64,000 nt of DNA from Entoloma clypeatum. Lineage: Eukaryota > Basidiomycota > Agaricomycetes > Agaricales > Entolomataceae. The translations under genes and the position numbers were made by a program. The first letter of the stretch is position 1; each line of letters opens with the position of its first letter. The stretch covers positions 4,588,001 to 4,652,000 of the forward strand of contig OY751487.1 in the NCBI GenBank assembly GCA_963565915.1, in the 5' to 3' direction. The notes beneath the pieces are model-generated. The model was not told where the DNA came from. It saw only the letters and a program-made list of their open reading frames with translations, and searched no databases. Positions 3,847 through 43,042 of this stretch are shown in pieces.

Positions 3847-3873
3847 ATAGAATAGTACTTGTTTTTTCTTGTT

Positions 3874-6705: not shown

Positions 6706-6715
6706 CTATTTTTTT
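6706..6715 (-). promoter_or_regulatory. Predicted -1 ribosomal frameshift site, E1 gag/pol
   Basis: On the sense strand the last gag codons are AAA AAA followed by TAG, preceded by an A. This forms the heptamer A AAA AAA (6709-6715) directly before the gag stop (6706-6708). The pol frame is exactly -1 relative to gag across this site. E2 has the same heptamer and stop at 39753-39762. A7 is a known slippery sequence. I did not identify a downstream pseudoknot. Confidence 0.7.
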
Positions 6716-7902: not shown

Positions 7903-7948
7903 AACTGGAATTTGAAATATGGATAAGCAAGTGGCAGTTTGAATATAC

Positions 7949-11138: not shown

Positions 11139-11220
11139 TACATCTGACACCCCTTCCAATCCCTCTTCCCACCATTCTGCCTACCACTCTGTAACTGGTG
11201 ACTCCGTATTGCCCATAGAA

Positions 11221-16157: not shown

Positions 16158-16168
16158 AAGGGGGGTAA

Positions 16169-16642
16169 TGTAAGGGCAACCATCCGATTTCCTCAATCCG
16201 ACACCTCCGACACCTCCGACCCATCCTCCGACCCTCCGACCATGTATTACTATACTTTATGTTTCCTTTCGTTTCCATCTATCCTTCGACACCTCCGACC
16301 TCCGACACTTCCGACCCGTCCTCTGCGTCGGAGTGCACGTCGGAGCAATGATTTATACCACCACATGCACACTTCCGATTTACATATTCCGTTCCCATCC
16401 CTACTCCTGATCTTTGTCGTATTTCAACATTCCTCTCCTCATTTCCAATTCTCATCGTCTATATAGCTGTTTAGCCTGCAAGGGAATCCTCAGAACTTTC
16501 TCTTTGGATTTCCCTTGCAAGGTACGCCTCGTATCGTACTTCATAGAGTCTAATTTAACTTTGGATTTCCCTTGCAAGTCGTCCGATGTCGGAGTCGCTT
16601 CGGAGCACTTTGGAGTTGTTGGATCGTAAGGTCACCCTTACA
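16169..16642 (+). repeat. 3' LTR of E3 (474 bp)
   Basis: TGTAAGGG...CCCTTACA, followed by target copy GAAGG. I count 11 TCCGA words, clustered at 16197-16241. TATATAG lies near 16459. Confidence 0.92.
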
Positions 16643-21255: not shown

Positions 21256-21566
21256 TGTTGAAACTTTTCCATCACGTAGATTAGATTAGATTAGATTATA
21301 TCACGTGACCTTTACACATCTTCGATTACATACTTATTTGGTTGGTACAAACAGTAGTACGGTATATAAGACCAGGAAACTGTCAATATCAACAAGTTGT
21401 CTCTTGACTCTTAACCAGCTCCATCGCTCTCACCAGCCTCAACCGCTCTCACCAGCCTTACCCCCCTCCAAACCATGTAAGTGACTATAGCGGTATCGTA
21501 GAGTACTTCCACTGTAGCCGTGTTGCTCAGTACACCTGTGGCTAGCGCCCAGGTGGAACTTCAACA
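21256..21566 (+). repeat. 5' LTR of C1
   Basis: TGTTGAAAC...GGAACTTCAACA. It contains four GATTA units (21278-21297), CACGTGA, and a TATATAAG box at 21363-21370, a plausible core promoter for the element transcript. Confidence 0.95.
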
Positions 21567-21578
21567 GGTTATGGGCCC
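21567..21578 (+). promoter_or_regulatory. Predicted primer-binding site, half-tRNA type
   Basis: GGTTATGGGCCC lies directly after the LTR. It is complementary in form to the anticodon stem-loop of initiator tRNA-Met rather than to a tRNA 3' end. Drosophila copia is known to prime from a cleaved initiator tRNA-Met. The same bases follow the LTR of C2 (28269) and of the truncated copy (ending at 10116, minus strand). Confidence 0.65.
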
Positions 21579-21929
21579 CGGATAGCAGAGGGACTTGGGA
21601 AACGCTGGCAACAGCGAGTACCTGCCCACTCTACCCTGGTTGGCAAAGAACCGATCGAAAGATCTAGGTTCTGAGTCATACTTCTTCACACATGAACCTG
21701 GGAACGTCATTACGACAAGTACCTGTCATGAGACGTCCCTAAGGGGATTGACCTAGTACACTCCATGTGGAAACGTTGATCGCACCTTATACGTTTCTGA
21801 CATATAAAGGGTTTTCCCATGACCGCTATTCCTGAAGGGAATATGTCATAAGGAATCATTCAAATTGTTTTCTCGAATCATATTCATAACACATCACTGA
21901 TTGGGAACCCTTTTTAGATTCATCTACAA

Positions 21930-24900
21930 ATGTCTACCTCTCGCTCCGCCCTCGACTCCATCGCCATCTTCGACGGCATCGACTACCAGAGTTGGGCAGA
22001 AAAAATGAAGTCGTACCTTCTCCATCAAGGAGTCTGGCGCCTCGTATCCGGCGACATTGAGCGCCCCACTATCGAAGACTTCACCGTCACGGTCTCCACT
22101 CCTGCCTCTGCCACCGCGACGTCTGCAACCCAGCCTCCGGTCATCACCGTCACCGTCGACCAGCCCGCCTTCCACAAAGAAAGGAAGATCTGGATCAGGG
22201 ACGACGACATGGCCTTCGGCTCCATCCGCCTCAAGGTCTCCGAAGCCATCAGGAGGCACATCAAAGACGCCAAGACCTCGAAAGAAGCCTGGACAATACT
22301 GAAGGACGCATATTCAAAAGTCTCCCCCGCCACCATTTTTGGCGATTTCAAAGCTGCAGCCTCCTTCAAACTGTCTGGTCGGGACCCCGTGCCGGAAATC
22401 GAGCGCCTTGGATCACTCTTCGCTCGTCTCAGCGACTCGAACTTCGTCGTGCCTGATCTCATGCAGGCTATGATCTTGGCAAGTGCCATTCCTGACGCCT
22501 GGTCATCTCTCTCCACCGCCCTCTTTCAGGTCTACGACGCCGACGACTTCACATGGCAGGCGGTCGCCGACAGCATCGTCTCAGAGTACAGGCGCAAGTA
22601 CGCAATTGGGTCTACTCGGGCGTCCAACGAGCAGGCCCGGAAAATCTCCGGGACCAAGCGAAAGGGGCAAGACCCCAAATGGGAAAAGCAAACAGCGCCG
22701 AGTACCTCGCGTAACAATGCTGACGAGCAGCCTAACTCGACCGACCCAAGTACCGCTTCTGAAAAGAAGAAGGGAAAGGGACGCTGGCGCAACCAGAAGA
22801 AGCGCGCCAACAACGCAGAAAACGACTCCGACCAAGCTGAGGAAATGGTCGAGTTTATTGCACCAGCCATTGAGCAACCCCTTCGTCGTCCTGCTCCTTG
22901 TCCTCTTCCTCCTCGTCAACGTGCCCCTTGCCATCTCCCTCCTCATCATGCACCCGCCTTCACCACTATAACGGGCCGCGGGAAAACTACAAGTACCGCG
23001 CAGCCTGAGTCGGAGAAAATGCAGTCGCTCCTGCAACACATGAACCCTCCTCCTTCCCAGTACACCGGGCTTCCTTCTGGAAAGCCGTCAGTGTGGAAAA
23101 AGAACGAAAGGGTCCGAAAGCTCGCCCGAGATATCGGCGCACAACCTTCTGGATCAAACCTTCGTATCCTAGATACCATCATTCCTGACATCGACGAAAG
23201 GCCGGCTAAACAGCGTCGCGTAGCCCCGTCGATAGAAGAATCGCTGAAGATGATGGACATCGACCAGGAACGAATGGGGCCGGATGTGTTTGAGGACGAG
23301 ATAGAACTTGACGGTTCGTCAAAACCCTTTCTTAAACCTTACCAATTGCGGAAAGCTAACAATACCTCTCAACAGACGTATGACATAATAGCCAGTACCA
23401 GTACAGAATGCATAGATCACTTTAGCAGTGATTTACATAAGAAATATATTAAACATTTTGCTTCTTGTACACATTGTAAGGAAAAAGAACGCGCGCAATG
23501 GATATTAGATTCCGGCGCCTCTTTACACTTCACCTATGAGTTTAAGGACTTCGCATATTATAGACCTCTCACGGTCAAGTGATTCGTCCAAACTGCAGCT
23601 AAAGGGAAGAAACTGGAAATACTCGGAGTTGGGGCCGTCCCAGTACGGCACACCCTAAATGGGGAAATAAAAACCCATCTTCTCAGACCGGTGTTCTACA
23701 TCCCGGACATGGACACACGCCTATTGTCCCTAGGCGTCTTCCTTAACCATGGTTACAAAGTAGACGGGACTTGTGGAGAAATTAACATCTCCAAAGGGCT
23801 GAGCAAAATCCAGTTTTCGCCCCACATCCTTGGTCAAACCATTTACTGGTTAGACACTGAAATACGCTATGACCAGATCCATGCGATCTCGAGCGAAATC
23901 ACTGTTGAAACATGGCACAAGCGCCTTGGTCACCCAAATGATCAAGCACTCCGAAAGATTCCTACCAGTACCAAAGGGGTACCTGAAACACTAGTACGTG
24001 AGAAATCACAGGAAAGTTGCACAGGTTGCCTCAAAGGGAAAATGCCAAATCAGTCATATCCAAATTCGATAACAAGGGCAACAAAAACCTTTGATCTGAT
24101 CCATTCCGATCTTAAACAAATATCCACGGCATCATACCACAAATATAAATATTTCCTTACATTTTTGGACGATTTTTCATCCCACGTCTGGGTCGTCTTG
24201 CTTAGGAAGAAGTCGGATGCTGTCATGGCACTACGACAATTCCTTGCGATGATCCAGAATCAATTCGCCGCCACTCCTAAGAAATGGCGAGTTGATGGAG
24301 GTGGAGAATTCAACGAATACAAGGATGTACTTGCCGATCATGGAATTCTGATCGACGTCACGCTCCCGTATCAGCACCAGCAGAACGGTCGAGCAGAACG
24401 GATAAATCGAACCCTGTGGGAGAAATCTCAGGCCTTGCGCTTCGACACGTGCTTACCACCTATGTGGTGGGAATTCTGTTTGGAACATGCAGCTTTTCTC
24501 TACAACAGAACCCCCATGCAGCGTCTCGAATGGAATACCCCTTACTTCAGGGTGACCAATGAGATCCCCGATATGTCAAGCATCAGAGTCTTCGGATGTC
24601 AGGCATATGTGTATATCCCAAAAGAAAAACGTAGAAATTCCCTGGAGTCTAGATCTCGATTGATGATTTATCTCGGATCAAAGCCAGGGGTCAAAGGATA
24701 CCGTTTCATGGATCCTGAGACTAATACAATTGAAAACCCAGAACCGGCTGATGAGTTTGAGGATCTCATCCCTGGAAATGATGACAATGACAGTCATAAC
24801 GAAACACCTCACGACCCTGTTCCTACTGGACAGGATCACCCTGAATCAGACGATGACTTGCCGTCTAGCGAGCCCAACGATGAACCACGAGTACCCACTC

Positions 24901-26636
24901 TGGAACCCGAACAAGTACCAGATCGACCAATCAGGGAACGACGAGTTCGGAGAATGCCAGGTAGCATCTATGGGGAAGACACCCCTGCTTCTGATCTTGA
25001 AAAAATGGATTGAAGACATAGATTAGGCAGTCAAACAGCATGGATGAATGATCTCCTAATGGAGGCAATCTCTATCCAAGTGGGCATCATCGAAATGTCA
25101 CACAAAGATATATACTCTCTTCCAAACAAAGAAGATTGGTATGCGGCAGAATGAAAAGAGCTAGACATGCTCAAACGCCGCGGGGTGATCACGGAGTTAG
25201 TACCCCTACCTACAGGGAGGAAAGCTCTAAGGAACAAATGGGTTTACAACGAAAAATCCGACGGGCGTTTGAAAGCGCGCCTTGTTGCAAAAGGTTTCTC
25301 ACAGGTAGAAGGGATTGACTTCGATCAAATCTTCTCACCAGTAGTGAGATACGAGACAGTCCGATTGATTCTGGCATTGACAGCCCTTGAAGGGTGGTTC
25401 ATGACACTCTTGGACGTCTCAGCAGCCTTCCTCTATGGAACACTCCGTGAGGTAATTTACATGCGACAGCCTGAGGGCTACATAGTAAAAGGGAAAGAAA
25501 ACCTCGTGTACCGACTATACAAAGCCCTATACGGACTCAAGCAGGCCGCATTAGCCTGGTGGAGGGAACTCGATTCCTCCATGAAAAAGCTCGGCTTTGC
25601 CCGGCTTCACTCCGATGCGGGAGTTTTCATTCACACAAGTACCAAAGGGGAAACTGTGATCGCCGTCATTTATGTTGATGACTCTGCTTTTCTCGGCACA
25701 AACCGGGAATACACGCTGGAAAAGAAGAAGGCCTTCATGACAACATGGGAATGTAGGGATCTAGGCCATCTAGTCCCTGATGGGGAACCAAAAGAATTTC
25801 TCTCTATCCAAATAAGGCAACGTGGGCAGCGGATCTTCATTGATCAAGTACCCTACCTTGAGAAAATTCTCGCACGCATGGGGATGAGCGAATCTAATGC
25901 CACCCATACCCCACTCCCGACGGGCTACAAACCCATGAAGTCTGAAGATGAACCCAATGCGGAACTCAGATCCAAGTACCAATCCGTCATCGGGTCACTA
26001 TTGTACTTAATGATCGGGACAAGACCCGACATTTGTTTCGCCGTAATCAAAATGTCCCAATTCCCCGCAAACCCTACCAAACGCCATTTAGAAGTGGCAA
26101 GGGATATTTGCAGGTATTTGAAGGCGACAAAAAATTACGCGATCATGTACGATGGTGATTCTGGGAAAGGAATCTACGCATTTACAGACTCCGATTGGGC
26201 GTCAGACGAAAACACCAGGAAGTCCACCACTGGTTACTTCGTATCGCTGGCATCTGGAGCAGTAACATGGGTTTCATCGGCGCAAAAAACCATTGCCCTC
26301 TCTTCCACGGAAGCAGAATACATGGCGCTATCAGATTGCAGTCGCGCAGTGACATGGCTTAGAAGCATGCTTGCCGAACTTGGGATGCAGATCGGATCAG
26401 TCCCGATCTATGGAGATAACAATGGCTCCGTCTTTATCGCATCCAACCCTGTAACTGAAAAGCGGTCCAAGCACATTGACGTGCGATTCCACTTCGTCAG
26501 AGAAAAAGTATCCGAAGGCATCATTACGGTTGAATTTATCGAAGGAGTGAATAACCCTGCAGACCTTTTAACTAAGAATCTGGGAAAAATCCTCTTCAAC
26601 AAGTTTATCCCGTACTTTGGATTACTTAAAAACTAG
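21930..26636 (+). pseudogene. gag-pol: C1 gag-pol polyprotein, three TGA and an in-frame deletion
   Basis: ATG at 21930 (MSTSRSALDSIAIFDG). Gag core (YQSWAEKMKSYLLHQGVW, IRDDDMAFGSIRLKVSEA, YDADDFTWQAVADSIVSE) without a classic CCHC knuckle. Protease WILDSGASLHFT. Integrase HKRLGHPN...CTGCLKGK, with IHSDLKQ, VDGGGEF and GRAERINR giving DDE. RT DVSAAFLYGTLREVIYMRQP and YVDD. RNase H TDSDWASDENTRKSTTGYF to the end. Stops at 23580, 25011 and 25152 are TGA, where C2 has Arg codons (VKRFVQ-type, LDRRRR, AERKEL). After ETNTI, 28 residues present in C2 are missing. The order gag-PR-INT-RT-RH is diagnostic of Ty1/copia. Confidence 0.95.
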
Positions 26637-26705
26637 ACGAAGAAAGAGTACCTATATGGGAAAAAGTAAAGATGTATTTAGAAGTATGTACTAAATATGG
26701 GGGGG

Positions 26706-27016
26706 TGTTGAAACTTTTCCATCACGTAGATTAGATTAGATTAGATTATATCACGTGACCTTTACACATCTTCGATTACATACTTATTTGGTTGGTACAA
26801 ACAGTAGTACGGTATATAAGACCAGGAAACTGTCAATATCAACAAGTTGTCTCTTGACTCTTAACCAGCTCCATCGCTCTCACCAGCCTCAACCGCTCTC
26901 ACCAGCCTTACCCCCCTCCAAACCATGTAAGTGACTATAGCGGTATCGTAGAGTACTTCCACTGTAGCCGTGTTGCTCAGTACACCTGTGGCTAGCGCCC
27001 AGGTGGAACTTCAACA
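26706..27016 (+). repeat. 3' LTR of C1
   Basis: Appears identical to 21256-21566 over 311 bases. Preceded by the purine tract ATATGGGGGGG. Confidence 0.95.
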
Positions 27017-27957
27017 AAAAACCTCCATTGAGAGGCCCGTATCTCCATCTATTGTGATGGCTCAGGGTTTGAAGGCAGCATAGGTGCCTCTGCGGTAATG
27101 TATTCCGACTCAGCGGAGACCAAGCATCTGCAGTACCATCTCGGCCCATCCTCACACCACACGGTATATGAAGGCAAACTGGTAGGTCTCTCCCTAGCTC
27201 TCCATCTACTAACCACCCTTAGGACCCCCCTCCGCTCCGTCTCTGTCATCGGCACGGATAGCCAAGCCGCCATCCATGCCCTCAACAACCAACGCCCCCA
27301 CCCAGCCCACCACCTCCTTGACAAAATCCATGATGCCGCGGAGACTCTCCAAGCCTCGCAACACCGCCTGAGAGGCAAGCGCCCCAGGAACAGGCCCCCC
27401 AACCGCAATGCGGTTGACCTCCAGCTCCACTGGACCCCCGGACACAAAGACTTCGCACCGAATGAACGTGCCAATGAACTGGCCAAACAAGCGGCTCAGG
27501 GAACCTCGAGCAACCCACCCCTCCTCCCAACCTTCCTCCGGAGAAAACCCCTCCCATACAGCATAACCGCCCTACATCAAGACCACCTGACCATGCTCAA
27601 GAGCCGCTGGAAGAGCCGCTGGAAGGAATCCCCACGCTACCCATCCACTAGCCTCATCGACAAATCTCTCCCATCAAAGAAATACCTGACCCTCATCGCC
27701 AACCTAAACCGCCGCCAATCAGCCACCATCACCCAACTCCGCACAGGCCACTCACCACTCAACCAACACCTGTTCCGAATTTGCCGCTCCGAAACCCCTT
27801 TCTGCCCACACTGCCGAGGGATCACCCCAGAGACTGTCCGCCACTTCCTCATCATATGCCCACATTACCAACGAGAGCGTCATATCCTACGCCGCAAACT
27901 GAGACAAAAAGCTGAGTCCATTCCCTTCCTCCTCTCCGACCCCACTGCGCTTAAGCC
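27017..27957 (+). pseudogene. LINE A RNase H domain and C-terminal zinc motif
   Basis: Continues LINE A after C1. A TGA near 27031 (LH-stop-EARISIYCDGSG, Arg expected) is followed by an intact RNase H: ISIYCDGSGFEGSIG, VYEGKLVGLSLALHLL, GTDSQAAIHALN and HWTPGHKDFAPNERANELA, which supply the D-E-D-D residues. A C-terminal CCHC-like motif (CPHCRGITPETVRHFLIIC) ends the protein, as in Tad- and I-type LINEs. C2 interrupts it at ALKP; the text resumes at 33707 with ILDFIQSSNRF. Confidence 0.88.
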
Positions 27958-28268
27958 TGTTGAAACTTTTCCCATCACGTAGATTAGATTAGATTAGATT
28001 ACATCACGTGACCTTTACATATCTTCATTACATACTTGTTTGGTTGGTACAAACAGTAGTACGGTATATAAGACCAGGAAACTGTCAATATCAACAAGTT
28101 GTCTCTTGACTCTTAACCAGCTCCATCGCTCTCACCAGCCTCAACCGCTCTCACCAGCCTTACCCCCTCCCAAACCAAGTAAGTGACTATAGCGGTATCG
28201 TAGAGTACTTCCACTGTAGCCGTGTTGCTCAGTACACCTGTGGCTAGCGCCCAGGTGGAACTTCAACA
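27958..28268 (+). repeat. 5' LTR of C2
   Basis: TGTTGAAAC...ACTTCAACA with GATTA repeats and TATATAAG near 28065-28072. Followed by the GGTTATGGGCCC primer site. Confidence 0.95.
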
Positions 28269-28630
28269 GGTTATGGGCCCCGGATAGCAGAGGGACCTGG
28301 GAAACGCTGGCAACAGCGAGTACCTGCCCACTCTACCCTGGTTGGCAAAGAACCGATCGAAAGATCTAGGTTCTGAGTCATACTTCTTCACATATGAACC
28401 TGGGAACGTCATTACGACAAGTACCTGTCATGAGACGTCCCTAAGGGGATTGACCTAGTACACTCCATGTGGAAAACGTTGATCGCACCTTATACGATTC
28501 TGACATATAAAGGGTTTTCCCATGACCGCTATTCCTGAAGGGAATAAGTCATAAGGAATCATTCAATTGTTTTCTCAAATCATATTCATAACATATCACT
28601 GATTGGGAACCCTTTTTAGATTCATCTACA

Positions 28631-31600
28631 ATGTCTACCTCTCGCTCTGCTCTTGACACCATCGCCCCCTTTGACGGCATTGACTACCAAAGCTGGGCCG
28701 AAAAAATGAAGTCCTACCTCCTCCATCAAGGAGTCTGGCGCATCGTCTCTGGCGATATCCCCCGTCCCGAGATCGCCGACTTCACCACTACGGTCTCCAC
28801 TCCTGGTCCCACCGCCGCTGCTCCCCCTGTGCTGACTACCACGGTCGACCAGCCCGGCTTCCGCAAGGAAGAAAAAGCCTGGATCAGGGACGACGACGTA
28901 GCTCTCGGGGCGATACGCCTGAAAATCTCTGAGGCGATCAGACGTCACATCAAAGACAGTACCTCGGCGCTTGGCGCATGGAAAACGTTGAAAGACGCCT
29001 ACTCCAAGATATCCCTGGCGGTCATCTTCGGCGACTTTAAAGCCGCCGCCACCTACAAACTGTCTGGACGCGACCCCGTCCCTGAAATCGAACGCCTGGG
29101 CTCTCTCTTCGCCCGTCTCGCCGATTCAAATTTTGTCGTCCCCGATCTGATGCAGGCAATGATCTTGGCCAATGCGATTCCCGACGCCTGGTCATCACTC
29201 TCCACCGCTCTCTTCCAGGTATACGACGCCGATGACTTCACATGGCAGGCCGTCGCCGACAGCGTCATCTCGGAATACAGGCGCAAGTATTCGGTCGGGT
29301 CTACTCGTACGTCCAATGAGCAGGCCAAGAAAATTTCTGGGACAAAGCGAAAGGGGCAGGACCCCAAATGGGAAAAGCAGCAAAAGCCGAGTACCTCACA
29401 GAACGACGCTGACGAGCAGCCTAACTCGACCGACCATAGTACCGCTTCCGAAAAGAAGAAGGGAAAAGGACGCTGGCGCAATCAGAAGAAAAGCGCCAAC
29501 ACTGCGGACAACACGTCCGACCATGCGGAGGAAACGGTTGAGTTTGTTGCTCCAGCCATACACTTCCCTCCACCATCCTTTACTACCGTCACCGGGCGCG
29601 GAAAAACGATAAGTACCGCCCAGCCAGACTCTCAGCGGATGCAGTCGCTCCTTCAGCGAATGAACCCACCTCCATCCCAGTACACCGGGCTTCCTTCGGG
29701 CAAGCCGTCTGTGTGGAAGAAAAACGACCATGTTCGCAAACTCGCGCGCGGCATTGGTGCCCGCCCCTCAGGGTCAAACCTTCGCATTCTGGATACGATT
29801 ATCCCAGAAGAAGACGAAAGACCGTCCAAGCAGCGTCGAGTTACTCCGCCGCTGGACCAAACCCTGAGGATGATGGACATAGACCATCAAAGCGAGCGGA
29901 TGGGGCCGGACCAATTCGAAGACGGGCTCATTGAACTTGACGGTTCGTCATCTTCCTCTCCTGAATCTGACCAATTAAGGAAAGCTAATAACACCTCCTT
30001 GCAGACGTATAAAATATTAGCTAGTACTAGTGCAGAATGTATGGATCACATTGACAACGATCTATATAAAAAATACACAAAGCACTTTGCGTCATGTACA
30101 CACTGTAAGGAGAAAGAACGTGCACAATGGATCTTAGACTCCGGTGCCTCGTTACACTTTACCCATGAGTTCAAGGACTTCGCGTACTACAGGCCTCTTA
30201 AGGCTAAGCGATTTGTCCAAACAGCTGAAAACGGAAAGAAACTGGAAATTCTCGGAGTTGGGGCCGTTCCAGTACGGCATACCCTAAATGGGGAAGTAAA
30301 AACCCACCTTCTCCGACCTGTATTCTACATTCCGGACATGGACACGCGCCTATTGTCCCTAGGCGTCTTCCTTAATCACGGTTACAAAGTAGACGGAATG
30401 CGTGGAGAAATCAACATCTCCAAAGGACAGAACAAAATACAGTTCTCACCTCACATTCTCGGACAAACCATTTATTGGTTAGACACTGAAATACGCTATG
30501 ACCAAATCCACGCGATCTCTAGCGAAATCACTGTCGAAACCTGGCATAAACGCCTTGGCCACCCAAATGACCAAGCACTCAATAAGATTCCCACTAGTAC
30601 CAAAGGAGTACCCAAAACGTTAGTACGTGAGAAATCACAGGAAAGCTGCACGGGGTGTCTAAAAGGGAAAATGCCAAATCAATCTTATCCTAACTCGATG
30701 ACAAGGGCTGTCAAACCCTTTGATTTGATCCATTCGGATTTGAAGCAGATATCCACGGCATCGTACCATAAGTACAAATATTTCCTTACCTTTTTGGACG
30801 ATTTTTCATCCCATGTCTGGGTCGTCTTGCTTAGGAAGAAGTCAAGCGCCATCACGGCGCTGAAACAATTCCTTGCGATGATCCAGAATCAATTTGCCGC
30901 TACCCCTAAAAAGTGGCGGGTTGATGGAGGTGGAGAATTTGACGAATACAAGGATGTACTTGCCGATCATGGAATTCTGATCGATGTCACGCTCCCATAT
31001 CAGCACCAGCAGAATGGTAGAGCAGAAAGGATCAATCGAACACTATGGGAAAAATCTCAGGCATTGCGCTTCGATGCATGCTTACCGCCCATGTGGTGGG
31101 AATTCTGTTTGGAACACGCAGCATTTCTCTACAACAGAACCCCCATGCAGCGTCTTGAATGGGAAACCCCTTACTTCAGGGTGACCAATGAGATCCCCGA
31201 CATGTCTAGTGTCAGAGTATTTGGATGTCAGGCATATGTATATATCCCAAAGGAGAAACGTAGGAACTCCCTGGAATCAAGATCCCGATTGATGATTTAT
31301 CTCGGATCGAAACCAGGGGTCAAAGGATACCGCTTCATGGATCCTGAGACCAACACGATCTTCATGGGCGGGAAAGCTATCTTTGATGAAAGCAAGTACC
31401 CTAGATGCCACATTGACCCGTTGCCAGAAAACCACCCAGAAATGGAAAACCCAGAGCCGGCTGATGAGTTTGAGGATCTCATTCCCGGCAGCAATGATGA
31501 CGATAGTCACAACGAAACACCTCATATCCCAGTTCCCATTGAACAGGATCAACCTGAATCAGACAAGAGCCTGATGACGAACCGCGAGTACCCACTCCGG

Positions 31601-31705
31601 AACCCGAGCAAGTACCAGATCGACCGATCAGGGAACGACGAGTTCGGAAGATGCCAGGAAGCATCTATGGGGAAGACACTCCAGCGTCTGATCTTGAAAA
31701 ATTAG
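28631..31705 (+). CDS. gag-pol: C2 gag-protease-integrase (first part of polyprotein, frameshifted end)
   Basis: ATG at 28631, 1024 codons open. The gag core is as in C1. Protease WILDSGASLHFTHEF lies near codon 500. GAG-pre-integrase and zinc finger (HKRLGHPN, CTGCLKGKMPN), then the integrase triad in IHSDLKQ, VDGGGEF and GRAERINR. After ENPEPADEFEDLIPG the frame matches C1 up to about 31568. There 16 bases present in C1 are missing and the protein runs into an unrelated tail (REYPLRNPSKYQ...) and stops at 31705. In C1 the same region reads through (PRVPTLEPEQVPDRP), so this is a mutation, not a natural gene end. Confidence 0.93.
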   Translation: MSTSRSALDTIAPFDGIDYQSWAEKMKSYLLHQGVWRIVSGDIPRPEIADFTTTVSTPGPTAAAPPVLTTTVDQPGFRKEEKAWIRDDDVALGAIRLKISEAIRRHIKDSTSALGAWKTLKDAYSKISLAVIFGDFKAAATYKLSGRDPVPEIERLGSLFARLADSNFVVPDLMQAMILANAIPDAWSSLSTALFQVYDADDFTWQAVADSVISEYRRKYSVGSTRTSNEQAKKISGTKRKGQDPKWEKQQKPSTSQNDADEQPNSTDHSTASEKKKGKGRWRNQKKSANTADNTSDHAEETVEFVAPAIHFPPPSFTTVTGRGKTISTAQPDSQRMQSLLQRMNPPPSQYTGLPSGKPSVWKKNDHVRKLARGIGARPSGSNLRILDTIIPEEDERPSKQRRVTPPLDQTLRMMDIDHQSERMGPDQFEDGLIELDGSSSSSPESDQLRKANNTSLQTYKILASTSAECMDHIDNDLYKKYTKHFASCTHCKEKERAQWILDSGASLHFTHEFKDFAYYRPLKAKRFVQTAENGKKLEILGVGAVPVRHTLNGEVKTHLLRPVFYIPDMDTRLLSLGVFLNHGYKVDGMRGEINISKGQNKIQFSPHILGQTIYWLDTEIRYDQIHAISSEITVETWHKRLGHPNDQALNKIPTSTKGVPKTLVREKSQESCTGCLKGKMPNQSYPNSMTRAVKPFDLIHSDLKQISTASYHKYKYFLTFLDDFSSHVWVVLLRKKSSAITALKQFLAMIQNQFAATPKKWRVDGGGEFDEYKDVLADHGILIDVTLPYQHQQNGRAERINRTLWEKSQALRFDACLPPMWWEFCLEHAAFLYNRTPMQRLEWETPYFRVTNEIPDMSSVRVFGCQAYVYIPKEKRRNSLESRSRLMIYLGSKPGVKGYRFMDPETNTIFMGGKAIFDESKYPRCHIDPLPENHPEMENPEPADEFEDLIPGSNDDDSHNETPHIPVPIEQDQPESDKSLMTNREYPLRNPSKYQIDRSGNDEFGRCQEASMGKTLQRLILKN

Positions 31706-33333
31706 ATCGAAGACGGAGATTGGGCGGTCAAACGGCATGGATGAATGACCTCCTGATGGAAGCAATATCAGTCCAAGTTGGCATCGTTGAAATGTCCCAT
31801 AAAGACATATACCCTCTTCCAAATAAAGAAGACTGGTATGCGGCTGAACGTAAAGAGCTAGACATGCTCAAACGCCGCGGGGTGATCACGAAGCTAGTAC
31901 CCCTGCCTGCAGGGAGGAAAGCTCTAAGGAACAAATGGGTTTATAATGAAAAGTCCGACGGGCATCTGAAAGCACGCCTTGTCGCAAAAGGCTTTTCACA
32001 GGTAGAAGGGATCGACTTCGATCAAATCTTCTCACCAGTAGTGAGATACGAGACAGTCCGATTGATTCTGGCATTGACAGCCCTTGAAGGGTGGTTCATG
32101 ACACTCTTGGACGTCTCAGCAGCCTTCCTCTATGGAACACTCCGTGAGGTAATTTACATGCGACAGCCTGAGGGCTACATAGTAAAAGGGAAAGAACACC
32201 TCGTGTACCAACTATTCAAAGCTCTATATGGACTTAAGCAGGCCGCATTAGCCTGGTGGAGGGAACTTGATTCCTCCATGAAAAAGCTCGGCTTTGTCCG
32301 GCTTCACTCCGATGCGGGAGTATTTATTCACAAAAGTACCAACGGGGAAATTGTAATTGCCGTCATCTATGTCGACGACTCTGCTTTTCTCGGCACAAAC
32401 CGGGAATATACGCTAGAAAAGAAGAAGGCCTTCATGACAACATGGGAATGTAGGGACCTAGGTCACCTAGTGCCTGATGGGGAACCAAAGGAATTTCTCT
32501 CAATCCAAATAAGGCAACGTGGGAAGAGGATCTTCATTGATCAAGTACCTTACCTTGAGAAAATTCTGGCACGCATGGGGATGAGCGAATCTAATGCCAC
32601 CCATACCCCACTCCCTACGGGCTACAAACCCATGGCGTCCGAAGATGAACCCAATGCGGAACTCCGATCTAAGTACCAATCCGTCATCGGATCACTCCTA
32701 TATCTGATGATTGGAACGAGGCCTGACATCTGCTTTGCTGTAATCAAAATGTCCCAATTTTCCGCAAATCCCACCAAACGCCATTTAGAGGTGGCTAGGG
32801 ACATTTGCAGATATTTGAAGGCAACGAAAAATTACGCGATCATGTACGATGGGGACTCAGGGAAAGGGATCTATGCATTCACAGACTCCGACTGGGCGTC
32901 AGATGAAAACACGAGGAGGTCTACCACCGGCTTCTTCATATCACTGGCGTCTGGAGCGATAACATGGGTATCATTGGCGCAAAAGACCATCGCCCTCTCT
33001 TCTACAGAAGCAGAGTATATGGCGCTATCAGATTGCAGTCGCGCAGCAACATGGCTGAGAAGCATGCTTGCCGAACTTGGAATGCAGATCGGATCAGTAC
33101 CGATCTACGGAGATAACAACGGCTCCGTCTTTATCGCATCCAACCCTGTGACTGAGAAGCGATCCAAGCACATTGACGTGCGATTCCACTTCGTCAGAGA
33201 AAAAGTCTCCGAAGGAATTATTACGGTCGAATTCATCGAAGGAGTGAATAACCCTGCAGACCTTTTGACTAAGAATCTGGGGAAAATCCTCTTTTCCAAG
33301 TTTATCCCGTACTTCGGACTGATAAAGAACTAG
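31651..33333 (+). CDS. pol: C2 reverse transcriptase and RNase H (second part)
   Basis: Continuation of the polyprotein in the shifted frame, open for 560 codons from MPGSIYGEDTPASDLEKLD. RT: NKWVYNEKSDGHLKARLVAK, GIDFDQIFSPVVRYETVR, DVSAAFLYGTLREVIYM, LYGLKQAALAWWREL, and catalytic YVDD near 32371-32382. RNase H: FTDSDWASDENTRRSTTG, LSSTEAEYMALSDCSR, YGDNNGSVFIASNP and HIDVRFHFVREKV, ending ADLLTKNLGKILFSKF, the usual copia terminus. Catalytic residues all appear present. Confidence 0.94.
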   Translation: MPGSIYGEDTPASDLEKLDRRRRLGGQTAWMNDLLMEAISVQVGIVEMSHKDIYPLPNKEDWYAAERKELDMLKRRGVITKLVPLPAGRKALRNKWVYNEKSDGHLKARLVAKGFSQVEGIDFDQIFSPVVRYETVRLILALTALEGWFMTLLDVSAAFLYGTLREVIYMRQPEGYIVKGKEHLVYQLFKALYGLKQAALAWWRELDSSMKKLGFVRLHSDAGVFIHKSTNGEIVIAVIYVDDSAFLGTNREYTLEKKKAFMTTWECRDLGHLVPDGEPKEFLSIQIRQRGKRIFIDQVPYLEKILARMGMSESNATHTPLPTGYKPMASEDEPNAELRSKYQSVIGSLLYLMIGTRPDICFAVIKMSQFSANPTKRHLEVARDICRYLKATKNYAIMYDGDSGKGIYAFTDSDWASDENTRRSTTGFFISLASGAITWVSLAQKTIALSSTEAEYMALSDCSRAATWLRSMLAELGMQIGSVPIYGDNNGSVFIASNPVTEKRSKHIDVRFHFVREKVSEGIITVEFIEGVNNPADLLTKNLGKILFSKFIPYFGLIKN

Positions 33334-33409
33334 GCGAAACAAAAGTACCTATATATATATGTGGGAAAAAGTAAGATGTATTTAGAAGTATGTACTAAAT
33401 ATGGGGGGG

Positions 33410-33701
33410 TGTTGAAACTTTTCCCATCACGTAGATTAGATTAGATTAGATTACATCACGTGACCTTTACATATCTTCATTACATACTTGTTTGGTTGGT
33501 ACAAACAGTAGTACGGTATATAAGACCAGGAAACTGTCAATATCAACAAGTTGTCTCTTGACTCTTAACCAGCTCCATCGCTCTCACCAGCCTTACCCCC
33601 TCCCAAACCAAGTAAGTGACTATAGCGGTATCGTAGAGTACTTCCACTGTAGCCGTGTTGCTCAGTACACCTGTGGCTAGCGCCCAGGTGGAACTTCAAC
33701 A
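33410..33701 (+). repeat. 3' LTR of C2 (292 bp)
   Basis: As the 5' LTR but missing 19 bases in the CTCACCAGCCTCAACCG region, consistent with slippage between short repeats. Confidence 0.93.
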
Positions 33702-34383: not shown

Positions 34384-34412
34384 CTTGAGGGGTTATTGTG
34401 AGATTAGAAGAC

Positions 34413-34955
34413 TGTCACGTAGCGTGTTTCTCAACGTCGGAAAACATCAGATGAGTCGGAGCGGAGTAGTGGAGGAGCGGAATGCGGTAAGTGCGACGTT
34501 GGCAGAAAGGACCTGGCTTCAACTTGTGCATTGCGCCCCACTCTTTGACGTGGTCCTCGATTTCGGATTGGCGGATGTCGGATGAGCAGATGAGCGGAAG
34601 AGCGGAGGTGACGGAGAGAATGCTCAAAGGCAAGTAGAGACGGATGCGAATGAGGTATAACATATGATATTTGAACTGAGGTTCTACGACAGGTTTGTAC
34701 ACTATTTATAGTAGACTAGAATGATCAGCATTACTATAAGTGATGTGCAAATATCGGAGTTGACCATCGGAACATTCGGAGTACGGAGAGTAGCAAATGA
34801 AAAGTGAACAACATATGTCTACTTGTAAGTATGGTTGAGATGTTACGTAGTAGAAGTATATTCAATATAAATAGAATGTTGTTGGAGCGGATGTCGGAGC
34901 GGATGAAATGTCGGAGTCGTCGGATAAGTTGGATGTGAATCGTATGGTTATGACA
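34413..34955 (-). repeat. 3' LTR of E2 (543 bp)
   Basis: TGTCACGTAG...TTATGACA. I count 17 copies of GCGGA or TCGGA on the + strand. The block at 34509-34538 is shared with E1 LTRs (27 of 30 bases, transitions only). The 3' LTR lies directly upstream of the antisense gene. Confidence 0.93.
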
Positions 34956-35086: not shown

Positions 35087-36108
35087 ATGTCCACTGAGAA
35101 CTCACCCCTCGCCGCTCTTCGTGCTGAAAGGGAGCGCCAGAAGAAGGTCACCGAAGAGTTGGAGAGGAAGCTGCAGGAGGCAGAGGAGCACGCGAAGGAA
35201 GATGCAGAGCGCGCGGAGGCGAAGAGGGCGGCGAAAGAGCAGAGACGAGCAGAGAGGAAGGCAGAGAAGGCGAAGGCGAAGGAACCGGTTGCGGGTGCAG
35301 GTGCAGATGCAGATGCGGATGCGGATGCGGATGCGGATGCGGATGCGGAGGTGAAGAAGGTCCAGCTGCAGGGAGTTTTCAAGAATATGCCTGCGAGTTA
35401 CAAGCAGGGGAAGGAGGATTGCACCTCCTGCTTGAAAGTGGGGGACTTGTGTTTTTGGCCATCGGAGTGAGTTTTTCCTATTTCTTTATACGCTTCGTTA
35501 TTAACTTGTTCTTTAGGAATGACAATGCTTCGTTGTGCTGGCCGTGCCAGCGTTTAAAACGAAGCTGCAGAACGGGAGCGGAAGCGGAGTCGGAGGTGAA
35601 GCGGAGGATGACCAAGGCGGTGAGGGTCGGAAAGGCTAAGGTGGCAGGTGGTGCGACGAAGAACGCGAAGGCGGGATCGTCCAAGGGAGAGGGGACCGCG
35701 GAGGGATCGCGGATAGCCGCAGCGTCGGAGGAGCCAGAGTTCATGCCGGAGGGGTTTGGTCCACCAGAGGTGGTCATAGGCACGGAGGTGGTGAGAGGAC
35801 TTAGGAGCATGATAAGGGAGATGCGGCTGATAAAGGTGGAGTTGAAGGAACTGCGGGAGATCAAGGAGCTTTTGACGGTTATCGCGTGGAGGGAGGATTC
35901 GGAGGCTTCGGAGGAGGGATCCGACGAGGACGAGGATGCGGAGGAGTATGATAGGGTATTGGAGGAGTTGGCAAAGGAGGTAGAAGAAGAAGAAGAAAAA
36001 GAAGAAGAAACGAAGAAGCGGAAGCGGATGGAGGAAGCGGAAGAGGAGTCCGGATCGGAGTGGAATGAGGAGACGGAGGGGGTATCTAACAAAAAACAGC
36101 GAAAGTAG
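35087..36108 (+). CDS. Antisense accessory gene of E2: coiled-coil protein with Zn2Cys6-type cluster
   Basis: Exons 35087-35466 and 35517-36108, intron 50 nt (GTGAGT...CTTTAG), 323 codons, no stop. Residues 10-70 form a Glu/Lys/Ala-rich coiled coil; residues 70-87 are a Gly/Ala/Asp microsatellite repeat. Cys 112, 115, 122, 134, 137 and 144 give C-x2-C-x6-C-x11-C-x2-C-x6-C, the spacing of fungal Zn(II)2Cys6 DNA-binding domains, with basic QRLKRS in the second half. The C-terminal half has further helices and a long acidic tail ending in a basic KKQRK. The intron splits the linker of the cluster at codon GA|G, exactly as in E1. It converges on pol (stops 42 bases apart). DNA binding is inferred. 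A structural or Gag-interacting zinc protein is the main alternative. Confidence 0.82.
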
Positions 36109-36150
36109 TTTTGTTAGTATAAAATTTTGATAGATTTTCTTTTCTTTTTG

Positions 36151-39100
36151 TTACAAGCGCGATAAGGGGCCTGGCTTGGTTGGTTGAGCGGAGTGGAAGT
36201 CCGCTACCGTATCCGCTGCGTGTTCAAGCTCGGATGGGGGTAACCAAGAAAACTCTTCACTGGTGTCTTCATAACCTAACCAGCGGACGAGGTAAAGGAG
36301 TTTGCAGCGTCGTCTTTTATCGATCTTTGAGTCGATGATTTCCACAATTTCATATTTGGTTTCTCCGTCCATCTCGAGCGGAGGCGGAGGAGATTGTATC
36401 CGATTTGGAATCTCGTTAGGAGTTGCTGGTTCGAGCATGGATATGTGGAAGATGGGGTGTATAGCACGCATAGTGTCGGGTAGACGTAGTGTAAAGGAGT
36501 GCGTGCCGGGTTGGGCTATGATTTCAAATGGGCCAGCATATTTGTCGGATAACTTTTGGGTGGGTCGTGTGGTGCGGAAGAACTTGGCTTTAACAAAGAC
36601 TTCTTGTCCGACGCGGAGCGGAGGAGGCGGAGAACGTCGGACGTCTGCAGGGCCTTGATAACGTTGTTGTGCCTCTGCGACAGCAGTCTTTAGTTCTTGA
36701 TGTAATTCATCTAAGTCGACAATGTATTGTCGAGCTTTATCGGATGCTAGATCACGTTCCGCATGGAGTGTAATGTCGGGATGATAACCTTTGTTGGCGA
36801 AGAATGGTGATACACCTGTAGTGGCACTCGGAGTGTTGTTGTAAGCGAACTCCGCAAGCGGAAGCAAAGCGGACCAGTTGTCTTGCTGGTAGTTGCAGAA
36901 AATGCGGAGGTATTGTTCGAGTGTCTGGTTGGTGCGTTTGGTTTGACCATCGCCTTCAGGGTGATATCCAGAAGTGAAGTGAAGTCTCATGTCGAGGGCT
37001 TTTGCAAGAGAGCGGAAAAAGCGGGAGACGAATTCAGGTCCGCGATCGGATGTGACATTTTGCGGAACTCCGTGCTTGGAAAAGACATGAAGCACGAAAA
37101 GGTTTGCTAGGTCTTTGGATGTGCAATTAATGGTGGTAGGAATGAAGATGCCTTGTTTAGTGAGGCGGTCTACAATGACCAGAATCGCATCGGAGCCAGC
37201 GGATGTCGGAAGGGGTTCAATGAAGTCCATGGAAATAGAATGCCAGGGACGTTCAGGAATAGGGAGTTGTTTCAGCAGACCATGCATTCCAGGCCAAGTG
37301 TATTCTCGTTGGATAAGACTAATAGTCTTATTCTAACCAGGGTGTCCAGCGAGGATATGGTCATGCTTATTGCGGAGGATGCGGAGACGGAGGTCGGATG
37401 AGTCGGGAACATAGATACGTCCATTGTGGAGTAGATAACCTGCTTCATTCATGATCCAGCGTGGATTAGGATTGTCGAGGAAAGAGGTGTAAATGGGATC
37501 GGTCAGAAGAGCGGAGAGGATGTCGGAGCGGAGCTGATCCATATCCATGATGATTGTGGCACGGAGGACGGGCGTATATAACTCTGTCGCGCGAAGTGAA
37601 GTGGTGAGCTGTTCTTGTGTGAAGATGGGTTTGAAGTTGCTTGGGTTGACGGACGAATAGTCGCTATTTCCCTCTTTAGGGTAGACGTCCCATCGTCTAC
37701 TTAAAAGATCGGGCTTCGTACCTAAACGGCCAGGGCGGAAGCGGATGACGAGATTGAACTGGCAGAGGTATTCGGACCAACGAGCTTGTCGACGTGATAA
37801 AATCTTGGTAGTAGAAAAGTACTCAAGATTTTTGTGGTCCGTTATGACATCGATCGGAGCAGCGGAGCCTTCAAGGTAGTGACGCCAAACCTTGAATGCA
37901 TTGTGGATCACTAATAGTTCTTTGTCGTGGGTGTCATAGTTTAACTCAGGAGGTGTAAAGGTGCGGGAGTGGAAAGCGACCGGATGGATTTCGTCATTGG
38001 AGGTGCGGATGGAGAGGATCGCACCCAAATTGTAGTCGGAGGCATCGGTTTCGACGATAATAGGGCTGTCGGGAATCCAATGCGTAAGAACAGGTGCCGT
38101 GGTAAAGGCTTTCTTCAAAGTTTTGAAAGATTCGCGAGCGGAGTCGGAGAAATGCCATTGTGTGTTTTTGCGGGTGAGTCGAGTGAGCGGAACAGTGATT
38201 TCGGAGTAGTAAGGCATGAATCGTCGATAAAAATTGGCAAAACCTAAGAAAGACTGAATGTCTTTGACCTTCCTTGGTTCAGGCCAATCTTGGATAATTT
38301 TGACTTTCTTATCCGACATGCGGAGGCCTGTCGGAGAGAGGATAAAGCCAAGGTATTCAACAGTATCCGTAGAAAACTCGCATTTGTCTGCGCGTGCGTA
38401 TAAGCCATGTTGTCAGAGATGTCAGAGGACTTCGCAGACATGCTTCCGATGCTCGGAGGGAGAGTCGGAGTAGATGAGGATGTCGTCGAGATATATGGTA
38501 ACATACTTATCGAGCAGGTCATGGAAGATGTCGTTCATGAAGCGTTGGAAAACGGCTGGGGAGTTGGTGAGTCCAAATGGCATGACAAGCCATTCAAAAG
38601 ACCCGTAGCGCGTGCGGAAGGCGGTTTTCCATTCATCTCCTTCTGCTATGCGGACGAGGTGATAGGCGTGTTGGAGGTCGAGAGCCGTATAAACACTGGC
38701 TTTTCCAGCGGTCTGGAGAAGGTCGGATATGAGCGGAAGCGGATATTGGTCCTTCTTTGAGATTTTGTTAAGACCACGGAAATCGATGCAAAGATGAAGG
38801 GAGCCATCCTTTTTATGAACGAAAAGGACGGGAGCACTGTGCGGAGAGGAAGAGGGTCAGATGAATCCAATGGTGAGGTGTTCGTCAATGAATTCATGGA
38901 GGGCATTGAGTTCGGTTTGTGAAAGGGAGTAGATCGGACCGAACGGAGGAGCGGAACCCTCTTCAAGTTCGATCTTGAGGTCGTAGGGACGGTGGGGTGG
39001 AAGAGTGTCTGCTTTTCCTTTACTGAAGACGTCAGCATAGTCATGGTATTCTTCGGGTACATTTGTCAAGTCGGGGGTGTCGGAAGCGGATGCGGAGTGA

Positions 39101-40910: not shown

Positions 40911-41453
40911 TGTCACGTAGCGTGTTTCTCAACGTCGGAAAATGTCGGACGAGTCAGAGCGGAGTAGCGGAGGAGCGGAATGCGGTAAGTGCGACGTTGG
41001 CAGAAAGGACCTGGCTTCAACTTGTGCGTTGCGCCCCACTCTTTGACGTGGTCCTCGATTTCGGATTGGCGGATGTCGGATGAGCAGATGAGCGGAAGAG
41101 CGGAGGTGACGGAGAGAATGCTCAAAGGCAAGTAGAGACGGATGCGAATGAGGTATAACATATGATATTTGAACTGAGGTTCTACGACAGGTTTGTACAC
41201 TATTTATAGTAGACTAGAATGATCAGCATTACTATAAGTGATGTGCAAATATCGGAGTTGACCATCGGAACATTCGGAGTACGGAGAGTAGCAAATGAAA
41301 AGTGAACAACATATGTCTACTTGTAAGTATGGTTGAGATGTTACGTAGTAGAAGTATATTCAATATAAATAGAATGTTGTTGGAGCGGATGTCGGAGCGG
41401 ATGAAATGTCGGAGTCGTCGGATAAGTTGGATGTGAATCGTATGGTTATGACA
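40911..41453 (-). repeat. 5' LTR of E2 (543 bp)
   Basis: Same length as 34413-34955; differences are transitions, mostly CG against TG/CA. The internal region begins GTATATTTGAACTACCAC on the minus strand, matching E1. Confidence 0.93.
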
Positions 41454-41478
41454 AAGACAACAAAAGCCATGTTCATAC

Positions 41479-42242
41479 CTTCAAGTTCGGGCAATGGTTA
41501 AGGATGCCTGAAACCCGTGCGAGGTTTGGCTGCTTGGTGGATCCATAGATGTGAGGGGTAGAATGCAGTACAATAGCCTCCATCTTCTGTAGCTACAGTA
41601 ACATACGGTATATGAGAGGCGGAACTCTGTTATTTGCAAGCAGACACTTACCACAACCGGCTTGCGGGGTCGTCGATTATCATCAACAGTAGGGGCTGTG
41701 GAGAACACCAGATTGTCGTTAATCTCAACCTCATGCAAGGAATGGCATTTCAGGAGAGTAGGCCAAACATTATCAATGGAGATCGGAGAATGGTTGCAGG
41801 ACCATGAGAAGGAGGACAGGGCGGACATCTTCGTTAGAGCTGAGACAAGATAACGTTCCTGTTTGTCATGCAGACCAAGCTCGTCATCGGTGGATTCGAG
41901 ATCGGTGTCCGACAATAGGATGCCTGGAGGAACAATCTCTGGATCTGTACTCCTCTCATCCATGATCTCGAGTTTCCTGACGTTCCTGGAAAGGGGGCGG
42001 TTCATGATCAAATGATTCCAGACGCTGATTGAGCTGACTCTGCAATGGATGGCACAATAATTGAAATGTTGAGGGAAGATGATGTCGTGCATCCTGTGAC
42101 AAGAGAGCGCGAAAGTGAGAGGATCAGCTTTTGATTCAACATGAAAGATGATAGAATCGAGGACTTTGGTCGGTTGACGTGTGATTGTGCGATGTGAAGG
42201 CGCAAGCCCAACAAAAGGTTTGACAATCGTGAGCAGGTGCAA
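41479..42242 (-). pseudogene. F-box/LRR protein gene, 5' exons
   Basis: Two minus-strand exons: 42242-41652 and 41586-41479, intron 65 nt (GTAAGT...CTACAG). The first encodes an F-box-like segment (KVLDSIIFHVESKADPLTF, ALSCHRMHDIIFPQHFNY) and then LRR-like text (SISVWNHLIMNRPLSRNVRK, SALTKMSALSSFSW, LKCHSLHEVEIN). The second (LARVSGILNHCPNLK) ends at donor GTATGAAC, in the intron now holding E2. Exons a, b and the 34383 exon all join in phase 0. No in-frame ATG precedes the F-box region after the upstream TAG; the position where a start is expected reads TTG here and in the copy at 58072. It is split over more than 22 kb, hence a pseudogene. Confidence 0.72.
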
Positions 42243-42568
42243 CGAGAGCTTGTGTAACTATGCTACAGAGGGTTTATATAGGTACTGACTATAGGCGGTA
42301 GGGGATGAGTCAGTACTGCGGAAGGCAGTGCGCATGAGTAAGGCAACTGCGGAAGGCTATGTACAATGAGTAAGCTGACTGTGGAAAGCGAGTCAGTGCA
42401 GGAGCGAAGTATACTAAAGGGGATGACGAAGTAAGGTAGTGAGTCAGACTGGGAATTGAAGGTTGTGAAAGTAGACATTAGACATAGTAAGTTCGTAAGA
42501 GGGCGCCGCGTTCGGATGATAGGTAAAAGATATGACGTGGTCCTCATACCGTAGAGTCTGTAACAGGT
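42243..42568 (-). promoter_or_regulatory. LTR-like promoter segment upstream of the F-box/LRR gene
   Basis: On the minus strand it begins TGTTACAGACTC and contains TATATAAACCCTCTGTAG (near 42258-42280) just before the F-box coding text. The whole segment reappears at 57749-58070, and a diverged version lies at about 58418-58600 directly upstream of gypsy F gag. It therefore looks like the U3 region of an LTR of the gypsy F family serving as promoter of a host-type gene. Transcription is not shown by sequence alone. Confidence 0.55.
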
Positions 42569-43042
42569 TTGTGGTCTTGGAAAGAGCCTGATCGTCACTG
42601 ACAGCAGCAGCCCACCATGAAAGAGTCATGATGACAAGTGCCATACCCAATGGACCACCTTCCAACAGCTCGCTCCAGTCACCGTCAACCGGAACCTCTC
42701 GACTGAGGGGATCACCTTCCCTCCACAATGGCTGCATCTCCACCCACCAGGATCACCACACAGCACCGAATTTGGCTGCATTGGATATGGTGGGTAGTCT
42801 CTCCACCAAGCGATGGTGTTTAAATTACCATGCAACCTCCTCAGGGCGCCCAGTCATCGGCAATTCCTGAGGGAGCATGCCATGACTCAATAAGAAAAAA
42901 GCATGGGAGAAGGTGACTGGAACTTACGCCCTTGTCTGGCTCCATAGACTTGAACCTGACCCAGATCTTGACCAGACTCAGCCAATGTGGGTGTTGAGAG
43001 ACACCATGGAAGTGTTTCAGCCATAACTTATACCACGAGGAC
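42569..43042 (-). pseudogene. Fragment of an unrecognised Agaricomycete-type gene
   Basis: Minus-strand text with intron-like gaps: WLSLVKIWVRFKSMEPDKG, a GTAAGT...CCTCAG interval, LVERLPTISNAAKFGAVW, then WWVEMQPLWREGDPLSREVP and LLEGGPLGMALVIMTLSWW. TAA and TGA stops interrupt it. The downstream side ends at the TGTTACAG boundary of the LTR-like segment. I do not know the function. The 3' end of LINE B must lie at its right edge, but no poly-A tract marks the boundary. Confidence 0.4.

Follow-up and report, generated by a model that had tools for sequence, protein, structure and literature searches.

A spliced antisense gene with a possible zinc cluster in chromodomain Ty3/gypsy elements of Entoloma clypeatum

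The window analysed here, i.e., the whole stretch of 64,000 nucleotides from Entoloma clypeatum, carries a retrotransposon, termed E2 in the following, with gag-pol on the minus strand. Its two LTRs are 98.7% identical over a 545-bp match, which reaches 2 bp past the LTR and contains 7 mismatches. The end of pol matches the Pfam models rve (36.9 bits), SH3_Tf2-1 (59.6 bits) and chromodomain (30.9 bits), all above cut-off. By its pol-end domains, its LTRs and a 5-bp target site duplication (TSD), E2 is a chromodomain Ty3/gypsy element. In the space that separates pol from the 3' LTR we find a gene of two exons (35087-36108, plus strand) which runs opposite to gag-pol and whose joined coding sequence is open and encodes 323 amino acids. 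An earlier note on this DNA had described a spliced antisense gene of 323 codons at this place, with a defined cysteine spacing, and all of this agrees exactly with the window sequence. A spacer of 131 nt separates the ATG from the inner end of the 3' LTR, while the stop of the antisense gene (36108) and that of pol (36151-36153) are arranged tail to tail with 42 nt between them. The features of E2 are as follows.

34408-34412 and 41454-41458, no strand: TSD AAGAC, flanking both ends of E2
34413-34955, minus strand: 3' LTR of E2, 543 bp, TG...CA
34702-34710, minus strand: TATAAATAG in the LTR, in gag-pol direction
34866-34874, plus strand: TATAAATAG within the LTR, oriented like the antisense gene and 213 nt upstream of the ATG
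35087-35466, plus strand: exon 1, codons 1-126 and two bases of codon 127, with the first cysteine triad
35420-35452, plus strand: first cysteine triad, residues 112-122, C-x2-C-x6-C
35467-35516, plus strand: intron, 50 nt, GTGAGT...TTTAG, separating the two cysteine triads
35517-36108, plus strand: exon 2, with the second cysteine triad, a basic linker, a helix-like segment, an acidic tail and the stop
35536-35568, plus strand: second cysteine triad, residues 134-144, C-x2-C-x3-K-x2-C
35788-35886, plus strand: hydrophobic-heptad segment, residues ~218-250, conserved in part in the second family (E1, see below)
35887-36084, plus strand: acidic tail, from the sequence
36151-37332, minus strand: 3' part of pol with integrase core, SH3_Tf2-1 and chromodomain
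40911-41453, minus strand: 5' LTR of E2, by repeat match

The predicted product starts with a charged segment that looks helical by eye, encoded in exon 1, and ends in SNKKQ. Six cysteines at residues 112, 115, 122, 134, 137 and 144 show the spacing C-x2-C-x6-C-x11-C-x2-C-x6-C. The heptad segment, likewise judged by eye, is a candidate dimerisation helix. Upstream of the gene, the copy of TATAAATAG at 34866-34874 resembles a TATA box and is a candidate for an antisense promoter.

Matches to the antisense gene lie at well over a hundred places in this one genome (60 Mb in 20 contigs searched). Genome-wide, at least 149 stretches match exon 1 and at least 153 match exon 2, where some places yield two stretches. 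From the loci of the best matches we collected 36 distinct full-length copies of the E2 family, a choice biased toward intact copies; five partial E2-family copies and one partial copy of the second family were left out of the samples. All sampled copies were retrieved via the antisense gene itself, and copies lacking the gene are outside the count. The spliced frame is intact in 31 of the 36 copies, and GT-AG splice sites are present in every one. The gene is present in many independent insertions; the outer 300-nt flanks all differ among the 36 copies. An LTR match adjoins the gene in every copy; it is nearly complete in 35 of them and limited to the last 100 bp in the other. The distance from LTR to ATG is 131 nt in 35 copies and 420 nt in one. 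An antisense-oriented TATAAATAG lies at most 300 nt upstream of the ATG in 36 out of 36 copies, most of which are young.

A related gene is carried by a second gypsy family, E1, one copy of which occupies 2208-8440 of the window.

2208-2700, minus strand: 3' LTR of E1, repeat match with its partner at 7948-8440, 97.8% identical
2866-3846, plus strand: homologue of the antisense gene in E1, a broken copy, intron 3266-3313, both triads present

The homologue takes the same place in the element, contains six cysteines and is interrupted at the corresponding point by an intron, which is 48 nt long in most copies. The earlier note had named the lack of any homologue at this position in other gypsy copies as an argument against the gene; such homologues are found, both in further E2 copies and in the E1 family. 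The integrase regions of E1 and E2 share 71% amino acid identity over 252 residues. A better E1 copy of the antisense gene was found at another locus, L072. A DNA search for the E1 gene returned 185 candidates, of which 40 were scored, and all 40 matched. Our E1 sample (n = 22) consists of 20 of these 40 places, picked for a spread of identity, together with L072 and the window copy. The frame is intact in 17 of the 22 copies, and 21 use GT-AG splice sites, while one uses GC-AG. All 17 intact products show the pattern C-x2-C-x6-C-x8-C-x2-C-x6-C. The spliced products of the two families are 37% identical (one copy per family) and have in common the charged N-terminal segment, the cluster, a segment in the LLT region, the acidic tail and the ending SNKKQ.

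Other gypsies of the genome lack the gene. A search of the whole window with the exon proteins gave matches at E1 and E2 only. In a gypsy at 10715-16586, which is without the gene, the pol similarity extends to 16088 and the LTR match begins at 16169, which leaves about 80 nt. Of 2087 SH3_Tf2-1 candidates, 150 were scored; at five loci taken from these (L073-L077), the integrase matches at 36-43% and the antisense gene is absent from the ~2 kb after pol; a sixth SH3_Tf2-1 locus (L078) adjoins a partial E2 copy. The antisense gene is therefore not a general feature of gypsies in this genome. It represents an accessory gene of a chromodomain Ty3/gypsy group, encoded opposite to gag-pol.

The nature of the cysteine cluster needs closer consideration. 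Zn2Cys6 clusters allow the spacing C-x2-C-x6-C-x(5-12)-C-x2-C-x(6-8)-C, and both families satisfy it, with a linker of 11 residues in E2 and 8 in E1. Pieces covering the cluster reach 15.4, 15.9 and 12.2 bits with the Pfam model Zn_clus (PF00172), below its gathering cut-off of 21 bits. The whole 323-residue protein matches no Pfam family, and the single halves of the cluster give no match to Zn_clus; taken by itself, the first half of the E2 cluster hits PSI_integrin instead, with 17.5 bits and likewise below cut-off (27). In the Zn_clus alignments, the second triad of E2 is placed on profile positions 2-15 or 3-15 and the first triad of E1 on positions 18-36. Since E2 aligns by its second half to the beginning of the profile and E1 by its first half to the end, the halves are perhaps swapped in order. 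Thus, the term "Zn2Cys6-type" used in the earlier note holds for the cysteine spacing and agrees with the sub-threshold Zn_clus pieces, while it is weakened by the missing Pfam match of the whole protein and the possible exchange of the halves.

The distribution of basic residues also bears on the order of the halves. For comparison we used 11 canonical clusters from elsewhere in this genome: nine of 20 fetched stretches show the motif, and the clusters at loci L069 and L070 complete the set. These carry on average 3.5 basic residues in loop 1 and 1.5 in loop 2, whereas the loops of the antisense gene carry one basic residue and then three (E2) or four (E1), the reverse of the canonical arrangement. 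Profiles built from 11 first and 8 second halves score 3.0 for the swapped against -10.5 for the native order in the E2 window copy, 1.6 against -2.7 in the E2 majority sequence, and 4.1 against -3.0 in E1. Single halves separate the two orders weakly: for the second half alone, the swapped and native scores are 2.7 and 2.3 in the E2 majority sequence, nearly a tie, and -1.7 and 0.0 in E1, which favours the native order. Because the reference set is small, the order-swapped cluster is offered as a suggestion and no more: the first triad perhaps corresponds to the second half of a canonical Zn2Cys6 cluster, and the second triad perhaps to its first half. All 48 intact copies carry a lysine as the fourth residue of the second loop, the Gal4-like position. 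In a comparison with solved structures the best match is an unrelated GTPase (E = 0.91), and GAL4 follows in native order with E = 2.7. The product resembles Gal4-type Zn(II)2Cys6 proteins in its six cysteines with a permitted spacing, one basic loop whose fourth residue is lysine, the helix-like segment and the acidic tail. Unlike these, it stays below the Pfam cut-off, its halves are possibly reversed, its cluster is split by an intron, and it is encoded by a retrotransposon.

Canonical Zn2Cys6 matches exist elsewhere in the genome. Among them are multi-copy Zn_clus ORFs at three loci (L069-L071), which have the canonical order and are not matched by the exons of the antisense gene; a truncated E1 element adjoins the one at L070. 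These multi-copy ORFs lie beside other conserved-looking ORFs, and at L069 and L070 a piece nearby looks, by eye, like the end of a Tc1/mariner-type transposase, possibly indicating a DNA transposon with cargo.

We next turn to selection, which was assessed in intact copies at codon columns with two codons that differ by one base. Variants shared by at least two copies come mostly from lineages that still replicated, while single-copy variants arose mostly after insertion. The neutral expectation was matched for base change and CpG context, and the restriction to intact copies drops nonsense changes equally from both classes. Shared variants in E1 amount to 15 nonsynonymous (N) and 49 synonymous (S) changes, with 40.9 N expected (z = -7.1); in E2 there are 11 N and 22 S, with 19.2 N expected (z = -3.2). 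Single-copy variants comprise 31 N and 18 S in E1 (31.1 N expected) and 36 N and 21 S in E2 (39.2 N expected). The resulting omega is 0.17 and 0.36 for shared variants of the two families, and 0.99 and 0.78, near neutral, for single-copy variants. The ratio of summed pairwise dN to summed dS is 0.21 and 0.32, and a looser choice of sites yields shared-site values of 0.30 and 0.50. In E1 the intron is more variable than the exons (0.101 versus 0.068), while both are about equal in E2 (0.020 versus 0.019). As shared variants are depleted of nonsynonymous changes and single-copy variants are nearly neutral, purifying selection acts during replication of the element. We read this as indicating that the element would need the antisense gene while it spreads, and that the host would not maintain it after insertion. 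Taken as a whole, the antisense gene is very probably a selected protein gene of the element.

The earlier note had pointed out that the antisense gene is open although pol of the same copy has stops and a damaged integrase. In the window copy, pol indeed contains in-frame stops, and damage to the integrase is consistent with an alignment that, for 27 of the 35 other copies, ends at one common point near its start. In a single copy, however, an open gene beside a damaged pol does not by itself indicate selection. At least 23 of the 36 E2 copies have no stop in the final 465 codons of pol and a shorter stretch is fully open in three more, while a few of the remaining copies are poorly anchored in the pol alignment. 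With its broken pol, the window copy is therefore an exception.

From these observations a regulatory role may be proposed. Antisense transcription would start from a promoter that lies within the 3' LTR or shortly inward of it, and splicing would follow. The genomic RNA of the element would hold the intron as reverse complement only, and the spliceosome would leave it in place; for this reason the intron should survive transposition and the gene should remain spliceable in every new copy. An intron kept through transposition in turn points to expression from an antisense mRNA and not from the transposition template. The product would be nuclear, dimerise through its helix, and bind DNA via the two-triad zinc cluster, which may be related to Zn2Cys6 and possibly order-swapped. 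Through its acidic tail the product would influence transcription, most likely of its own element, as a control of copy number or timing. HBZ, a spliced transcription regulator and basic zipper protein of a retrovirus, performs such a control for HTLV-1. The layout of cluster, helix-like segment and acidic tail resembles that of a fungal activator, the pattern of selection followed by decay suggests that the element uses the gene for self-control, and control of its own transcription appears as the most economical role. A nuclear regulator that is encoded by the retrotransposon and acts on transcription, most likely that of its own element, is on balance the explanation that we favour. If this is true, fungal gypsies run a regulatory loop like that of complex retroviruses, in which a zinc cluster replaces the basic zipper.

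Antisense genes in LTR elements are known as such. In plants, Grande (gene23), RIRE2 and Retand (ORF4/TRP28) carry antisense ORFs between pol and the 3' LTR, and according to two articles (PMC7264820, PMC11963269) some of their products are nuclear and some are suspected DNA binders; the TRP28 proteins of Retand are described as probable DNA binders (PMC11963269). Like our gene, these ORFs lie opposite to gag-pol at the same location, are retained by the majority of copies and recur in several families. The hosts differ, being plants, Retand is not a chromovirus, and the words "zinc" and "intron" have no occurrence in the texts of PMC7264820 and PMC11963269. Boty-like retrotransposons of Botrytis cinerea, by the title of a 2011 paper and by PMC8365987 and PMC4227169, have an additional antisense gene, brtn, and a gag-pol with chromodomain; by this description brtn is likewise an antisense extra gene in a fungal LTR element, and the host is an ascomycete. 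HBZ of HTLV-1 is reported in PMC7264820 and PMC11963269 as a nuclear product whose antisense gene lies close to the 3' LTR, where an antisense promoter is located. It shares the antisense position near the 3' LTR with our gene and differs from it by the zinc triads and the retrotransposon found here.

In an article on fungal LTR elements (PMC3248453), neither "antisense" nor "zinc" occurs in the text. By titles and abstract beginnings, the literature searched, which covers subscription papers to a small extent, contains no report of a zinc cluster in such an antisense gene. Searches of protein databases for relatives gave none with E <= 1e-3 among 456 candidates, none with E <= 10 among 135, and none with E <= 1 among 3937; the fungal content of these collections is uncertain, and little weight is placed on them with regard to distribution. 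Among viral contigs, 494 pattern matches included none related to the antisense gene. What appears new is an intron-split, possibly order-swapped zinc cluster together with the contrast in selection. The purpose of antisense genes in LTR retrotransposons is an open question according to the abstract of PMC7264820, and the present system makes it testable by a selection signature, a candidate DNA-binding cluster with candidate sites in the LTR, and a reporter-like intron, which would unambiguously report antisense transcription.

Such candidate sites are triplet arrays in the LTRs. The 3' LTR of E2 (34413-34955) contains 21 CGG and no CCG on the plus strand. An order-swapped Zn2Cys6-like factor could bind these one-way CGG arrays and regulate its own element as well as other array-bearing gypsies in trans; we regard this as a tentative reading, and a doubtful one. 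If true, it would provide a fungal counterpart of the HBZ circuit from a different fold. Across 34 aligned E2 LTRs, none of 38 non-CpG motif positions and 19 of 431 positions elsewhere show shared variants, which are small numbers. Triplet arrays are equally present in the LTRs of a gypsy family without the antisense gene, and therefore they do not point to the antisense protein.

Several other explanations have been considered. The gene may be real and selected, with a protein that serves as a chaperone or nuclear-import factor of Gag or of the pre-integration complex, or as an RNA-binding protein; its zinc triads would then form a structural fold or one that chaperones nucleic acid. Zinc knuckles of retrotransposons commonly bind RNA, the Zn_clus model gives no match above cut-off here, and the highly charged segments would suit a scaffold. 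Moreover, PMC7264820 links antisense ORF proteins to nuclear import of the pre-integration complex. The two triads, the basic second loop with its lysine, the helix-like segment and the acidic tail nevertheless resemble a fungal transcription factor and not a CCHC knuckle, and coding in antisense uncouples expression from Gag. We consider this explanation rather unlikely.

Alternatively, the antisense RNA itself might matter by silencing the element through double-stranded RNA, and the protein would be incidental. Silencing of this kind is proposed for antisense transcription in plants in PMC7264820, and an antisense-facing promoter would yield such RNA. A role of the RNA alone does not predict selection at the codon level and is disfavoured for this reason, as the shared-variant omega values given above indicate such selection and the protein is conserved between the families beyond composition. 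This makes it quite improbable. Hardly more credit can be given to a host transcription factor gene, or a fragment of one, captured once and carried along as functionless cargo. Retroelements are known to capture host genes, and the genome does contain canonical Zn2Cys6 matches; against this, the gene resides in two families with integrase regions 71% identical, its frame is intact in most of the sampled copies, and selection preceded insertion, the shared variants not being neutral.

The idea that the other strand codes, so that a selected env-like sense ORF would follow pol and the antisense ORF would be its shadow, meets the following data. In E2, minus-strand ORFs of 211 codons (35478-36113) and 198 codons (35554-36150) overlap exon 2, and in raw scores over exon 2 one minus frame exceeds the coding frame (162 versus 136). 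The minus frame that shares third positions with the antisense frame gives 0.32 and 0.52, compared with 0.30 and 0.50 in the coding frame; the sites that distinguish the two number just 8 of 138 and 2 of 60. As this matched minus frame is equally depleted of changes, N/S counts alone leave the strand unfixed. It is open over exon 2 in three out of three E2 and one out of three E1 copies inspected. Over the whole coding sequence, by contrast, it contains at least one stop in E2 and at least two in E1 copies, and the 198-codon ORF is without a methionine. When E1 and E2 translations were compared with shuffled sequence in nine pairs, the antisense frames reached a mean z of 5.2 in exon 1 and of 9.9 in exon 2, while the best other frame, on the minus strand, reached 3.4; one spliced E1/E2 pair gave z = 12.6. 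A sense ORF would also leave the conserved GT-AG sites in antisense direction unexplained. The shuffled controls, the conserved ATG and the splice sites thus support the antisense strand as the coding one, and we hold a sense gene to be very improbable. The codon-position and N/S pattern of the antisense frame is that of a protein gene in both families, and a chance or simple-repeat ORF is ruled out by the frame kept in most copies, the N/S pattern and the comparison with shuffled sequence.

Some further observations concern the composition of the elements and the remainder of the window. In the 34 E2 LTRs, CpG sites are about ten times more often variable in shared form than other sites (28 of 64 versus 19 of 469), an excess which is as expected because of methylation and deamination. 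The motif TCCG, mostly as TCCGA or TCCGC, is packed into several gypsy elements on the gag-pol sense strand. Counts on the sense and the other strand are 20 and 0 in the E2 LTR, 16 and 0 in the E1 LTR, 12 and 2 in the LTR (10715-11132) of the gypsy at 10715, and 101 and 21 in gag-pol of E2, where all three codon frames of the integrase ORF are used. Exceptions are a gypsy integrase piece at 17198-18379 (2 versus 3) and the interior of the element at 10715 (65 versus 48). Elsewhere the motif is balanced, with 34 versus 34 in 13.4 kb, and it is missing from a copia LTR. Genome-wide, TCCGACTCCGA occurs 884 times versus 39 for the reversed control. This strand bias suggests a cause at the level of RNA or cDNA.

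The window also contains an inverted pair of 605 bp (41965-42569 and 57745-58349), 99% identical and ~15 kb apart, and neighbouring copia-like elements that share LTRs (21256-33701). Between two copia LTRs lies an ORF of 316 codons (27032-27982), which by eye resembles the RNase H end of a non-LTR element.
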